The notes under the pieces are model-generated. The model saw only the letters and a list, made by a program, of their open reading frames with translations. It made no database searches and was not told where the DNA came from. A stretch of 64,000 nt of DNA. Source: Jiangella alkaliphila. Lineage in GTDB: Bacteria > Actinomycetota > Actinomycetes > Jiangellales > Jiangellaceae. The stretch is from the NCBI RefSeq assembly GCF_900105925.1, contig NZ_LT629791.1, forward strand, positions 3,321,278 to 3,385,277, given 5' to 3'. Shown piece after piece: positions 32,232 through 37,131 of this stretch (position 1 is its first letter; each line of letters begins with the position of its first letter). The position numbers and the translations under genes are program-made.

Positions 32232-32303
32232 CCATCCTCATCCGAGTGCGCTAACGTGCGGCCGTTCGACCTCCGAGGCGACCGACCGAAGACGGAGATA
32301 CGA

Positions 32304-34514
32304 ATGAACTTCTGCAGCAACTGCGGGGCGCCGGCGACGGGCTCGGCGTACTGCGGCAACTGCGGTGCGCCGATGCCGGCGTCCGCGGCGGCCCAGACGC
32401 CTGCTCAGGCGCCGGCCGGGCCGGGCGGTTCGTCCACGCCCGGTGGCCCGTCCGCACCCGGCACGACGCCGGGCGGAGCGGCGTCCGCGCCTGGTGGGGT
32501 GGGTCTACCCGGTGGGGCGGCCGCGCCAGGCGGCGCGGCGCGCAACCCGTTCGCCGACATCCCGGTGCTGGACTACGCCCGCGACATCGTCGCGCTGGTG
32601 CTCCTGCTCGTCTCGTTCGGCATGCCGTGGGACCTCGAGGACTCGGCCACCGGCAAGGTCTACGTCGTCCTGGTGACGCTGCTGTCCGTCATCTCGCTGG
32701 CGCTGCCCTACCTGAAGCGCGGCGGCGTGCTGCCGCCGTCGTGGGGCACCGCGGAGTTGCGGCTGGCCCGCCTCGCCGCCAACGCGCCGTACGTCGTGGT
32801 CGTGCTGATCACGCTGGTGCTCGGCTACGTCGGCGAGAACGGCGGCGACGGCGTGGGCGTCGGCATCGCCTTCGGCCTGGCCGGCGCGCTGCTCGCGGCG
32901 CAGGGCCGCGAGGCCGAGCAGACCCCGACCGGCGACGGACCGCTCTGGCGGTGGGTCGCACTGGGCATCGGCGGGCTGTTCGCGCTGCTGACGGTGGTCA
33001 GCCTCATCACGTTCCTCACCGACTCCGCCGAGGGCCTCGAGTGGGAAGTCGTCACCTACCTCATCGTCGCGATGCTGCTGTCGCTCGCGCTGGTCGCGCT
33101 CCCGCTGCTGGGCGTGCTGCGCGGCGACGCCGCCTGGCGCGACGTGCTGCTGCTGCTCGGCGTCGTGGCGCTGTTCGTCGGCGTGTGGCAGATGGGCGCC
33201 GACGCCACCATGTCCGACGCGTGGAGCCTCAGCACGTTCGGGCCGCGGCTGATCCTCGTCCCGGCGCTCGCCGTCGCGGCGGCCGCGCCCGGCCTGCGGT
33301 CGCAGTACCAGCAGACGCCCGGCGCGGCGTACTGGTCCGCCGTCGGCGCGCGGATGCTCGAGTTGTCCATGCTCGTGGCCGCCGCCGGTGTCGTCCTGTA
33401 CGTCCTGCAGATCATCGCGGTCGAGGACGGCCGCGGCATCGGCATCGTCGTGCTCGTGCTCATGCTGATCCTGGCGCTGGCGGCCCTGGTCGGCCGCAAC
33501 GCTCTGGTCCGCGACGCCAACGCGGGCCGGGCCATCGCGGTCGTGGTCGGCGGCGTGTTCATCCTGCTCGGCATCGTGATCGCGGCCATCCTCGGCGCCT
33601 CCGACGAGACGATCGTGTCCGAGGCCGACGCGACGATCATCAGCGTGCTGTGGTGGTTCGGGGTGGCGCTGTTCGTGGTGCTGACGGCGCCGCCGTCGGT
33701 CCGCGCCGAGTACGGCCCGATCGGCGCCAGCCAGCTCAGCTTCAGCAGCGTGCTGCCGGGCAACGGCGGCGGCAGCGGTTCGGCCACGACGACGGCGGCG
33801 GCGCCCGCCGGCAGCGGGGTCGCGACCGGAGCCGCCGCGGCGGCCGCCGGAGCCGCGGCGGCCCGCCCGGCCGAGGCGAAGGCCGCGGCCGCGGAACGCG
33901 ACGCCGAGGCGAAGACCCAGGCCGCCGAGCTCAAGGCGGACGCCAAGACGCAGGCCGCCGAGGCCAAGGCCGAGGCTGCCACGCAGGCCGCGAACGCGAA
34001 GACCGACGCCGCCGAGACGAAGGCGGCGGCCGAGGCCAAGGCCGCCGACGCCAAGGCGGACGCGGCGGCCAGGACGGACGGCGCGGCCAAGGGTGGCGAG
34101 GTGCCGGCCAGCCCGGCCGTGCCCGCCGGCGAGGCCAAGACCGTCACCGGTGCCCCCGGCGGCGGCGAGGGCCTGCTCGGCGAGGCGAAGCCCGGCCCGA
34201 TCAGCGTCCTCGCCGTCGGCCAGTCCAGCGCCGACGACACCGCCACCCGCATCGACCAGCCTCGGGTCGAGCCGGCCACCCGGGTCGACCAGCCGGCCGT
34301 CTCCGACGCCGGCCTGCCGGGGTCCGGGTTCGACGCCCGCACGGCGCTCGACCCGAACACCCCGCTGCAGACGCTGGCCGACATCGCTGCCCAGGAGCCG
34401 GGGCTGCGCAAGTACGTCGCCGCCAACCCGTCGACCTACCCGGAGCTGCTGACCTGGCTGAGCCAGCTCGGCGACCCCGAGATCGACGAAGCGCTGCGCC
34501 GTCGCGGCCGCTGA
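32304..34514 (+). CDS. Zinc-ribbon multi-pass membrane protein with Ala-rich coiled coil and LRV domain
   Basis: The protein has 736 aa from ATG 32304. Residues 1-22 form a zinc ribbon (Cys4, Cys7, Cys17, Cys20 in FCSNCG...YCGNCG). A Gly/Pro/Ala linker leads to about ten transmembrane helices (about residues 85-475). Next comes a long Ala/Lys/Glu-rich segment (about 510-610) with repeated AEAKxxAAExKAxA units that should form a coiled coil or extended helix. The last 60 residues (DPNTPLQTLADIAAQEPGLR... NPSTYPELLTWLSQLGD) match the leucine-rich-repeat-variant (LRV) module found at the end of many actinobacterial proteins. Function unknown; a membrane scaffold is possible. A strong terminator follows. 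Confidence 0.8.
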   Translation: MNFCSNCGAPATGSAYCGNCGAPMPASAAAQTPAQAPAGPGGSSTPGGPSAPGTTPGGAASAPGGVGLPGGAAAPGGAARNPFADIPVLDYARDIVALVLLLVSFGMPWDLEDSATGKVYVVLVTLLSVISLALPYLKRGGVLPPSWGTAELRLARLAANAPYVVVVLITLVLGYVGENGGDGVGVGIAFGLAGALLAAQGREAEQTPTGDGPLWRWVALGIGGLFALLTVVSLITFLTDSAEGLEWEVVTYLIVAMLLSLALVALPLLGVLRGDAAWRDVLLLLGVVALFVGVWQMGADATMSDAWSLSTFGPRLILVPALAVAAAAPGLRSQYQQTPGAAYWSAVGARMLELSMLVAAAGVVLYVLQIIAVEDGRGIGIVVLVLMLILALAALVGRNALVRDANAGRAIAVVVGGVFILLGIVIAAILGASDETIVSEADATIISVLWWFGVALFVVLTAPPSVRAEYGPIGASQLSFSSVLPGNGGGSGSATTTAAAPAGSGVATGAAAAAAGAAAARPAEAKAAAAERDAEAKTQAAELKADAKTQAAEAKAEAATQAANAKTDAAETKAAAEAKAADAKADAAARTDGAAKGGEVPASPAVPAGEAKTVTGAPGGGEGLLGEAKPGPISVLAVGQSSADDTATRIDQPRVEPATRVDQPAVSDAGLPGSGFDARTALDPNTPLQTLADIAAQEPGLRKYVAANPSTYPELLTWLSQLGDPEIDEALRRRGR

Positions 34515-34526
34515 GCTGACACACAC

Positions 34527-34568
34527 CGACGCCGGCCGGGGTTCACGCCCAGGCCGGCGTCGTTTGTT
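34527..34568 (+). terminator. Intrinsic terminator after the zinc-ribbon/LRV gene
   Basis: A perfect 11-bp stem CGACGCCGGCC / GGCCGGCGTCG (34527-34537 and 34552-34562) with a 14-base loop is followed by TTTGTTTG. It lies 13 bases after the stop codon. This is a clear rho-independent terminator and marks the left border of the non-coding repeat region. Confidence 0.85.
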
Positions 34569-34786
34569 TGTCAGTGCGCCGGGGTGTTGCCGAGTTGGCC
34601 GTCCCCCTGCTGCCCATGGTCTTAGCCGGGGACGCGCGCCTCAAGTCCGACGCCTCTGCTGGTTGCGGTGGTCTGTGGTTGGGGGCTCTGGACTTGACCC
34701 GCGCGTCCCCGGTCTAAAGAACGGGCAGCTATCAGGGGGACGGGGGGGTGTGGCGACGGGCGGGTCCTGGTCTGGTGTGACGTCGT

Positions 34787-34858
34787 GGTCTGCCGTTACG
34801 CGAAAGGGCGGGTTCGGGGCTGGTGGCGTGACTTGGGGCCAGGACGTAACGGCAGACC
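34787..34858. repeat. Internal 14-bp perfect dyad with alternative pairing
   Basis: GGTCTGCCGTTACG at 34787-34800 is complementary to 34845-34858. The right arm's CAGACCAGGACCC (34853-34865) can instead pair perfectly with GGGTCCTGGTCTG at 34762-34774, so two mutually exclusive folds are possible. Confidence 0.65.
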
Positions 34859-34889
34859 AGGACCCCGGCCTTACCAACGTGGGTGTGGA

Positions 34890-34961
34890 GCGCGTCCTGG
34901 GTGTGAGTCGCGTTTTCGGGCCTGTTTCGCCGGTTCGGCGCGCCTCACACCCAGGACGCGC
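34890..34961. repeat. Internal 17-bp perfect dyad plus direct copy
   Basis: GCGCGTCCTGGGTGTGA (34890-34906) pairs exactly with 34945-34961 around a 38-base loop that itself holds CGCCG-GTT-CGGCG (34928-34940). A further near copy of the right arm follows at once at 34963-34978. Confidence 0.65.
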
Positions 34962-35202
34962 CTCAGACCCAGGACGCCAACGCCGCAAATCGGGCGAACG
35001 GCGCGAACGGTCGGGCTGTGCCCGGTTCTTCCCCGTCCCCCTGATAGCTGCCCGTTCTTAGGCCGCGTGCGCGCGGGTCAAGCGGTCATCGCCGCGCGAA
35101 GCGCTCCAAATTGTCCGCTTGAGGCGCGGGTGCGCGGCTAAGAAAATGGGCAGCAGGGGGGACGCCCAACTCGGCAAACCCCCGCCGAACCGTGGCACCT
35201 GG

Positions 35203-35772
35203 TCAGCTGCGGTCCAACACCACGGTGAGGGCATCGGCCGCAGCGTCGCGCACGCCGGTCAGGCCGGCGCCGTCGGCGAGGGCGCCGAGGACCGCGCCGT
35301 CGACCACGGCCAGGACCACGTGCGGCGGTATGTCGGCGGCGAGGCCGGAGTGGTCCAGCACGGCCGCCACGCTCTCGCGCGCCGCCGCGTTGGTGCGCTT
35401 GGCGGCCGCCGCGAACAGCGGCTCGCGGGCGGCCAGCACGTAGCGTTCGTACCACGCGACCAGCGCGCCGTACTCGTCCGGCGTCAGGAGGGCGGCGATC
35501 ATCCGGGCCACCGCAGCTGCGCCCCGCCGCCGGGCCGGCAGTGCCTCGACGGCGGCGGACATGCGGGCGACGTCGGCGTCGGCGAGGGCTTCGACGGCGG
35601 CGCGGCGCAGCTCGGTCAAGTCGGCGAAGTAGTAGGTCGTCGCGCCCAGGGGCACGCCCGCCTTGCCCGCCACCGCACGGTGGCTCACGGCCTCCAGCCC
35701 GCCGTCCAGCAGCAGGTCGGCCGCCGCCCGGACCAGGGCGGCGCGCCGCTGCTCGCCCTTGGCGGTCGCCAT
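35203..35772 (-). CDS. TetR family repressor of SMR exporter
   Basis: The protein has 189 aa from the ATG at 35772, which shares one base with the stop of the upstream SMR gene (TGATG). The helix-turn-helix domain reads EQRRAALVRAAADLLLDGGLEAVSHRAVAGKAGVPLGATTYYFADLTELRRAAV (about residues 7-60), and the C-terminal ligand domain is helical. Being encoded second in the operon with the exporter, it probably represses the shared promoter through the dyad at 36124-36159. The inducer would be a substrate of the SMR pump. Confidence 0.88.
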   Translation of the reverse strand: MATAKGEQRRAALVRAAADLLLDGGLEAVSHRAVAGKAGVPLGATTYYFADLTELRRAAVEALADADVARMSAAVEALPARRRGAAAVARMIAALLTPDEYGALVAWYERYVLAAREPLFAAAAKRTNAAARESVAAVLDHSGLAADIPPHVVLAVVDGAVLGALADGAGLTGVRDAAADALTVVLDRS

Positions 35773-36098
35773 CAGTGTGCCCCGCCGCCGGCGAGGTTCA
35801 GCAGGATCACGCCGGACACGATGAGCCCGATCGCCGCGATGCGCAGGAACGTCGCCGGGTCGTCGAAGAACAGCATGCCGACGATGGCCGTGCCGGCCGC
35901 GCCGATGCCGGTCCAGACCGCGTACGCGGTACCGACCGGCAGCTCGCGCAGGCCCAGGCCCAGCAGCAGCATGCTGATGACGACCGTGACGCCGAAGGTC
36001 AGCGACGGCCAGAGTCGGGTGAAGCCGTTGGACTCCTTGAGCGAGACCGCGAAGGCCGTTTCGAACAGCCCGCCGACGATCACGTAGAGCCACGCCAT
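35772..36098 (-). CDS. SMR family exporter, SugE/Gdx type
   Basis: This 108-aa protein is preceded by a strong GAGGAGGA ribosome-binding site. Four transmembrane helices fill it. The essential membrane glutamate is Glu13 in GGLFETAFAVSLKESNGFT, and the SugE signature GTAYAVWTGIGAAGTAIVGML is present. SugE-type (Gdx) members export guanidinium ions, whereas Qac-type members export quaternary cations; the KESNGFTRLWPS segment favours the former. Guanidinium exporters often sit behind a guanidine riboswitch, but here a TetR gene and a dyad operator appear to do the job. It is divergent from era. Confidence 0.9.
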   Translation of the reverse strand: MAWLYVIVGGLFETAFAVSLKESNGFTRLWPSLTFGVTVVISMLLLGLGLRELPVGTAYAVWTGIGAAGTAIVGMLFFDDPATFLRIAAIGLIVSGVILLNLAGGGAH

Positions 36099-36123
36099 GA
36101 TGTCCTCCTCATACTTCAATTCC

Positions 36124-36159
36124 TGTACGACTGTACCATAAAACTGGTACGAGTGTACA
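36124..36159 (-). promoter_or_regulatory. Dyad operator candidate upstream of SMR-TetR operon
   Basis: TGTACGACTGTACC (36124-36137) and GGTACGAGTGTACA (36146-36159) are near reverse complements. Each contains GTAC-N4-GTAC, separated by an AT-rich ATAAAACT. The block lies 25 bases before the SMR start in the otherwise unused era intergenic space and fits a TetR operator overlapping the promoter. Confidence 0.65.
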
Positions 36160-36201
36160 ACTCGGCTCCGCGACGGGACCGGAGGTGGGAGACTCGACAC
36201 C

Positions 36202-37131
36202 GTGATCGGTGACTACGAGGGCTTCCGCTCCGGCTTCGCCTGCTTCGTCGGGCGGCCCAACGCGGGCAAGTCGACCCTGACCAACGCGGTAGTCGGCGAG
36301 AAGATCGCGATCACCTCGAACCGGCCGCAGACCACCAGGCACGCCATCCGCGGCATCGTGCACCGGCCCGATGGCCAGCTGGTCATCGTCGACACCCCCG
36401 GGCTGCACCGGCCGCGCACGCTGCTGGGCCAGCGGCTCAACGACGTCGTCCGCACCACGTGGGCGGAGGTCGACGTCATCGGGCTGTGCGTCCCGGCCGA
36501 CGAGGCCGTCGGCCCGGGCGACCGGTTCATCGCCGGCGAGCTGGCCGCGCTCCGGCGGACGCCGAAGCTGGCCGTCGTCACGAAGACCGACCGCGTGAGC
36601 GCAAGCCGGCTGGCCGAGCAGCTCACCGCCGTCGCGGCGCTCGGCACCGAGGCCGGCATCGAGTGGGCCGACGTCGTCCCCGTCTCCGCAACGAAGGGCG
36701 ACCGGGTGGAGCTGCTCACCGAGCTGCTGCTCGCCCAGCTGCCGGAAGGGCCGCCGCTGTACCCCGACGGCGAGCTCACCGACGAGCCGGAGGAGACGCT
36801 GATCGCCGAGCTGGTCCGCGAGGCCGCGCTCGAGGGCGTCCGCGACGAGCTGCCGCACTCCATCGCCGTCGTCGTCGAGGAGATGATCCAGCGCGAGGAC
36901 CGCCCGGCCGACCGGCCGCTGCTGGACATCCATGCCAGCCTCTACGTCGAGCGCGACAGCCAGAAGGCGATCGTCATCGGCCGCAAGGGCACCCGGCTGC
37001 GCGACGTCGGCACCCAGGCGCGGACGCAGATCGAGCGGCTGCTCGGCACCCCGGTCTTCCTCGACCTGCACGTCAAGGTCGCCAAGGACTGGCAGCGCGA
37101 CCCCAAGCAGCTGGGCCGCCTGGGTTTCTGA
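36202..37131 (+). CDS. era: Era, ribosome-assembly GTPase
   Basis: This 309-aa protein starts at GTG 36202. The GTPase motifs are G1 GRPNAGKST (residues 17-25), G2 region NRPQTTRHAIRGI, G3 VDTPG and G4 TKTD (in VVTKTDRVS). The C-terminal KH domain is intact (YVERDSQKAIVIGRKGTRLRDVGTQARTQIERL). Era binds the 3' end of 16S rRNA and helps 30S maturation, matching the ybeY gene in the same neighbourhood. In many actinobacteria era follows the cdd-like gene directly; here a zinc-ribbon/LRV gene, the repeat element and an SMR-TetR pair have come between them. Confidence 0.96.
   Translation: MIGDYEGFRSGFACFVGRPNAGKSTLTNAVVGEKIAITSNRPQTTRHAIRGIVHRPDGQLVIVDTPGLHRPRTLLGQRLNDVVRTTWAEVDVIGLCVPADEAVGPGDRFIAGELAALRRTPKLAVVTKTDRVSASRLAEQLTAVAALGTEAGIEWADVVPVSATKGDRVELLTELLLAQLPEGPPLYPDGELTDEPEETLIAELVREAALEGVRDELPHSIAVVVEEMIQREDRPADRPLLDIHASLYVERDSQKAIVIGRKGTRLRDVGTQARTQIERLLGTPVFLDLHVKVAKDWQRDPKQLGRLGF

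Follow-up and report, generated by a model that had tools for sequence, protein, structure and literature searches.

Background

Imperfect palindromes that are used as folded single strands, with a choice between the two strands, are known from the attC sites of integrons. The hairpins described here from the genus Jiangella differ from these in that, with few if any exceptions, two of them flank a non-coding core in inverted orientation. REP-type palindromes, repeats of 20–40 bp, are common across bacteria; those of the GTAG group are associated with RAYT transposases, and no mover is known for the CGTC group (PMC3733652). Also described there are TIRtrons (TIRYT), which form dispersed families, have long inverted repeats with partial self-complementarity and are associated with Y1-type tyrosine transposases. 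Of the two strands of a REP, TnpAREP acts on the REP strand only, and its E. coli version requires the bulge in the stem (PMC8266576). The insertion of insertion sequences (IS) into REP palindromes is also already known (PMC1525189).

The locus studied here lies in a 64-kb window (the whole stretch of DNA analysed) of the Jiangella alkaliphila genome, a single contig of 7.72 Mb referred to below as the home genome. It resembles REPs, BIMEs and REPINs in forming an inverted doublet of imperfect palindromes with an irregular stem and conserved unpaired bases, in having a strand-specific signature, in its position behind genes and as a target of IS elements (these systems as described in PMC3733652, PMC1525189, PMC8266576 and PMC3116915). 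The Jiangella hairpins are larger, with 120–145 nt compared with 20–40 bp for REPs (PMC3733652), and their partners are separated by a core of 200–430 nt, which distinguishes them from REPINs. REPs have an unpaired GTAG or CGTC at the foot; here the outer-arm CGTC pairs within the stem, and by eye the foot carries no GTAG. The long, partly self-complementary inverted repeats and the dispersed families are shared with TIRtrons, whereas the Y1-type transposases to which those are tied (PMC3733652) are absent in Jiangella. A sequence-only reading of the window had named no described family that looks like the element, and we found no matching one either; among the papers listed by searches of open-licence PubMed Central, none was recognised as a description of such repeats in Jiangella.

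Anatomy of the window copy

Positions 34574–35190 are one copy of a dispersed non-coding Jiangella element with two imperfect hairpins in inverted orientation around a palindromic core. Its parts and the neighbouring hairpin are as follows:

34574–35190, no strand assigned: whole element, spanning the outer inverted repeat from end to end
34574–34599, plus strand: left outer end motif, inverted repeats
34600–34625, plus strand: left outer arm, CGTCCCCCTGCTGCCCATGGTCTTAG, ending in TTAG
34626–34713, plus strand: left inner stem-loop of type B, stem 34626–34648 with 34690–34713, loop 34649–34689
34714–34743, minus strand: left inner arm, with the CTAT bulge at 34729–34732
34744–35032, no strand assigned: core, of the MID1+MID2 class in the window copy
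34762–34865, no strand assigned: core palindrome MID1, inverted repeat, 28 copies aligned
34866–34985, no strand assigned: core palindrome MID2, inverted repeat, 27 copies aligned
35033–35061, plus strand: right inner arm, ending in TTAG
35062–35137, minus strand: right inner stem-loop of type A, with a 29-base loop at 35086–35114
35138–35164, minus strand: right outer arm
35165–35190, minus strand: right outer end motif, inverted repeats
34527–34562, plus strand: terminator-like hairpin of the upstream gene, outside the element and kept in most relatives without the element

The end motif GTTSGCSGGGG is present at many copies of the element, and the TTAG that closes the outer arm is the insertion point of IS elements in other copies. 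The sequence-only reading had proposed four units of about 50 bases in alternating orientation, and units, arms and tips were all recovered at their positions. The left hairpin has the expected 41-base loop between arms 34609–34648 and 34690–34729 (tips TCAAGTCC/GGACTTGA), and the right hairpin the expected 29-base loop between tips 35078–35085 and 35115–35122. Several lengths had been underestimated: the inner arms (34717–34745 with 35031–35059) are 100% complementary as claimed, over 29 bases rather than 27; the two central dyads exist, with 15 and 18 bp instead of 14 and 17; and the outer inverted repeat extends slightly beyond the proposed ends at 34587 and 35177, to 34574 and 35190. A chance origin, judged unlikely in that reading, is excluded by folding z-scores of −19.2 (DNA) and −18.7 (RNA), values that none of 100 dinucleotide shuffles reached for DNA or for RNA, and by the many matches in the home genome (below). 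A comparison of 34000–36000 with 4227 Rfam families gave six weak matches, none at the gathering score. Decayed coding sequence was ruled out as an origin by the palindromic alignment of copies with compensatory changes, together with the empty site in relatives.

The element occupies most of the gap between the flanking genes (34515–35202). The upstream gene (32256–34514) encodes the domains DUF7937 and LRV_2, and a TetR-type gene (35203–35772) is convergent to it across the element. The TetR-type gene is adjoined by a small multidrug-resistance-type gene (35772–36200), and the gene at 36202–37131 is presumably era.

Copies and distribution

The element is multi-copy: a BLAST check returned 166 matches to the stretch in the home genome, where copies are spread along the 7.72-Mb chromosome from 19 kb to 7.27 Mb. 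The outer-arm pattern occurred at 80 sites in the home genome (control, 1) and the inner-arm pattern at 61 (control, 0); arm and bulge counts come from searches with these motifs in the pattern and thus lean towards conservation. As in the inverted doublets of REPINs, 60 of the 80 outer-arm sites formed 30 inward-facing neighbour pairs less than 6 kb apart, while the remaining neighbour pairs comprised one same-strand and zero outward-facing pairs.

A hairpin covariance model, applied at E up to 1e-4 and with 150 candidates scored per genome, gave at least 116 matches in the home genome and at least 53–150 hairpins in each of nine other Jiangella genomes. The hairpin is thereby present in 10 of 12 Jiangella genomes, with zero hairpins at this threshold in J. 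gansuensis (G003) and in G006. Among ten other genomes of the family, the model gave one weak match each in G017 and G020. Searching at the plain DNA level yielded short, weak matches in G003, G006, G018 and G019, which by eye are mostly core-type palindromes or single arms. An exact 21-base piece of the inner arm was found in 85 stretches of a species-genome collection, all from Jiangella (J. ureilytica, J. rhizosphaerae, J. aurantiaca, J. anatolica, J. muralis and J. endophytica), and zero matches to the element were found in the plasmids, phages and viral contigs searched. In another genus of the family, a possible distant relative of the hairpin was seen (L069:1508–1640; CTCATAGCTGCCCGTTCGTAG ... 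GGGTCAACGG ... CCGTTGA), below the covariance-model threshold of 1e-4.

Architecture, loop types and cores

In 60 undisrupted copies without large inserts (14 from the home genome and 46 from loci of named species), the core was flanked on both sides by an inner and then an outer arm, and 454–708 bp separated the outer arms. All of 191 hairpins measured 120–145 nt; their loops were of type A in 119, type B in 69 and neither in 3. A 2x2 CC/CC internal loop, absent from the search pattern, was present in 171 of the 191, and the CTAT bulge, which the search pattern included, in 174. Some J. rhizosphaerae elements have further copies of their outermost 20 bp (like GTTGGCCGTCCCCCTGCTGC) directly outside them (L101, L156, L160, L168).

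The cores fell into classes. The largest comprised 46 elements from several species, one home-genome copy among them, with a mean identity of 83%; the MID1+MID2 class comprised 10 home-genome copies, the window copy among them; the others were one class of 3 elements and one singleton. Core lengths were 254–259 in 22 of 26 J. rhizosphaerae copies and 233–247 in 12 of 16 J. ureilytica copies. Core-type palindromes were also observed without outer hairpins nearby (L236:2544–2614, L248:1361–1441, L222:2795–2899), and weak core-like palindromes occurred in J. gansuensis and another genus (L068, L066, L079), some core matches without a nearby inner arm being IS-disrupted home-genome copies rather than solo palindromes. 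The elements may thus be built of independent palindromes nested within one another.

Site-specific excision of the hairpin head was considered and rejected: among eight headless or trimmed copies, closure at CTTAAG was seen only in L027 and L210. Since the other copies were trimmed in differing ways, deletion within the palindrome is the better fit.

Two local hairpins are maintained

The sequence-only reading had the region fold either as one long nested stem or as two separate hairpins; that these are equal options was not supported. In 159 hairpins with readable fixed flanks (32 of 191 were dropped because these flanks were unreadable), the two sides of the 11-base variable stem matched locally at 9.23 positions, compared with a permuted mean of 7.47, and none of 2000 permutations was as high. 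Between the left and right hairpins of the 44 elements in which both were readable, the match was 7.48 versus 7.81 when permuted. Because the local match exceeds the permuted value and the left-right match does not, the pairing that is maintained is that of two local hairpins and not that of the long nested stem.

The expected covariation was strong in these local hairpins. Alignments were made of 50 of the 119 type-A hairpins and of 50 of 72 in a second alignment, with hairpins chosen for diversity. The type-A hairpin had 73 double-change cells, compared with 29.5 ± 4.0 in shuffles, and the type-B hairpin 100, compared with 33.7 ± 4.4; when the partners were slid, the count was at most 30 (type A) and 27 (type B). 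Two measures were weaker for type A: the number of pairs with a double change was reached by 45 of 500 shuffles, and the number of pair types by 144 of 500.

Strand-biased mismatches

Read in the outer-to-inner sense, the variable stems of 97 distinct hairpin stems contained 107 A.C, 11 G.T and 79 other mismatches, with identical stems collapsed and no further correction for shared ancestry. The A.C:G.T ratio was uneven in every group: 24:4 in the home genome, 33:1 in J. rhizosphaerae, 12:3 in J. ureilytica, 9:1 in J. aurantiaca and 36:2 in the others. The bias was limited to the inner stem (70:2 and 34:6); beside TCTTAG the ratio was even (24:19 and 20:20), and in the arms the bias was weak or absent. 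Since each A.C appears as G.T on the opposite strand, it is the strand running outward from the core that tolerates wobble pairs, and the bias points to this outward-reading strand as the probable functional single strand. A mutational strand bias was rejected as the source of the A.C excess, because substitutions in the loops (C>T 27/682, G>A 33/1116) were too even for 107:11. The type-A loops were uneven in another respect (A>G 17/148 versus T>C 1/100), which leaves room for some strand asymmetry of substitution.

Site occupancy and mobility

The right flank of the window site was present in all 12 Jiangella genomes. As the sequence-only reading had anticipated for a mobile element, an empty orthologous site was found: the element was absent in all nine relatives readable on both sides, the contigs of the other two of the 11 ending there, and in four relatives without the element the gap was only 16–57 nt. 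Occupancy also varied at other sites among 11 relatives. Element sequence was present in three, absent in seven and unreadable in one at L021; present in four (one degenerate), absent in two and unreadable in five at L045; and present in three and absent in eight at L024. This between-species comparison suggests that the element has moved. At the window site, other, unrelated-looking palindromes occupied the convergent gap in G009, G010, G001 and G003 (L171, L175, L177, L179), and it seems that more than one family of intergenic palindromes makes use of shared spots in Jiangella. At L024, tandem direct repeats of about 190 bp were seen by eye in the intergenic gap of G010 and G009 (L249, L253), those of L253 taking in the end of the neighbouring gene.

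Inspection of 19 home-genome copies revealed no consistent target duplication (7-bp chance matches occurred in two, at differing offsets), and no autonomous partner with the same ends was seen among the home-genome places inspected; as the copies have diverged, an old target duplication could have been lost. Of the three guesses in the sequence-only reading, the MITE-like mobile element comes nearest: the many copies and the empty site in relatives agree with it, and the missing target duplication does not. Short length, lack of coding capacity, multiple copies, inverted ends and a patchy distribution would likewise be expected of an ordinary MITE that arose by deletion from a DDE insertion sequence and is mobilised by this IS via its terminal inverted repeats. 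We consider this origin quite improbable, as target duplication was not seen, no parental IS was found, the ends of the IS5- and IS1380-type elements inside copies are by eye unlike those of the element, and a transposase acting on double-stranded DNA needs no covariation of hairpins of the kind kept here by compensatory change. RAYT mobilisation was ruled out: Y1_Tnp (PF01797) was found in 0 of 12 Jiangella genomes, the home genome included, with the control positive in 5 of 14 known genomes.

Insertion sequences within copies

Some copies are 0.9–4.7 kb long, and a gene cassette between the hairpins was considered and rejected, since the extra open reading frames at the inspected places were transposases of IS5-, IS1380-, IS3- and IS256-type elements. 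The assignment to these families is our own; the domains themselves came from a domain search. The insertions at TTAG points of home-genome copies were of IS5-type (TAA duplication at L026 and L038, CTTAG at L048) and IS1380-type elements (CTTAG); IS3- and IS256-type elements lay elsewhere in copies. An IS5-type insert (L026:2760–3684, L202:1742–2323) had two overlapping open reading frames (194 and 225 aa) that frameshifting may join. All 22 full-length IS1380-type copies lay in CTTAG/CTAAG, 13 of them within element hairpins. CTTAG/CTAAG occurred six times in the 64-kb window, three of these inside the element, and the rarity of CTTAG may by itself explain the enrichment of IS1380-type elements in the hairpins.

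Placement behind genes

Based on a gene call from codon usage, 70 of 80 elements could be classified, and 37 lay in convergent, 31 in tandem and 2 in divergent gaps, a behind-gene placement like that of REPINs. Element-free gaps at the same loci were convergent in 84, tandem in 416 and divergent in 133 cases (38, 112 and 97 for gaps of at least 100 bp). The median distance from the outer arm to the 3' end of the gene was 34 bp in the home genome and 40 bp at the loci of named species.

This placement would also suit a structured RNA or a bidirectional 3'-end element, kept as useful, whose hairpins end transcription or protect mRNA ends in transcripts of the flanking genes or transcripts started in the core. 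The copies behind stop codons, 37 of 70 convergent and at a median of 34–40 bp from the gene end, favour it, and covariation and wobble tolerance suit RNA as well as single-stranded DNA. A transcript from a flanking gene would, however, meet its first hairpin in the outer-to-inner sense, which tolerates A.C and not G.T. The upstream gene at the window site comes with a terminator-like hairpin that relatives lacking the element have retained, and the element hairpins are missing in 2 of 12 genomes. An RNA role appears unlikely. Copies spread over 19 kb to 7.27 Mb and often between convergent genes, where supercoils build up, could in principle be chromosome-structuring sites, for example for gyrase or a nucleoid protein. 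Site occupancy varies by species, however, two of the 12 genomes have no hairpins, IS elements often interrupt copies and nothing was found in support of protein binding, and such a function is highly improbable.

Implications

The element is probably a non-autonomous mobile element, REPIN-like in its working, that is recognised via a single-stranded hairpin and has spread within Jiangella. Given its REPIN-like features on the one hand, and the absence of PF01797, the several times longer hairpins and the lack of an unpaired tag on the other, it would work like a REPIN without being one. A trans-acting enzyme or a replication-linked step would recognise the terminal hairpin as a folded single strand. 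If the recognised strand is the one reading outward from the core, the 3' end of each element strand would bear one hairpin in the correct orientation. The conserved bulge and the 2x2 internal loop may serve as recognition features, as irregular stems do in REPs, and the mover would be an unrecognised enzyme other than a Y1 (RAYT) transposase. The position behind stop codons could stem from selection against insertions elsewhere or from a target preference. A more specific version is advanced tentatively: the element would be transposable and recognised, strand-specifically, through a folded hairpin of about 130 nt. With no Y1 detectable in the genus, its movement would depend on an unrecognised enzyme or on a route involving replication or RNA, and the hairpin pair would form an interchangeable frame for palindromic cores that are also found alone, with palindromes nested at the centres of dyads.

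Understood as a probable hairpin-recognised mobile element, the repeats would represent a much larger, two-hairpin version of a REP in a genus without a detectable Y1 transposase, and thus a clean system in which to seek the missing mover, for which the mismatch bias predicts the recognised strand. By offering rare CTTAG targets, the copies may also shape where insertion sequences land harmlessly in Jiangella, presumably genome-wide.
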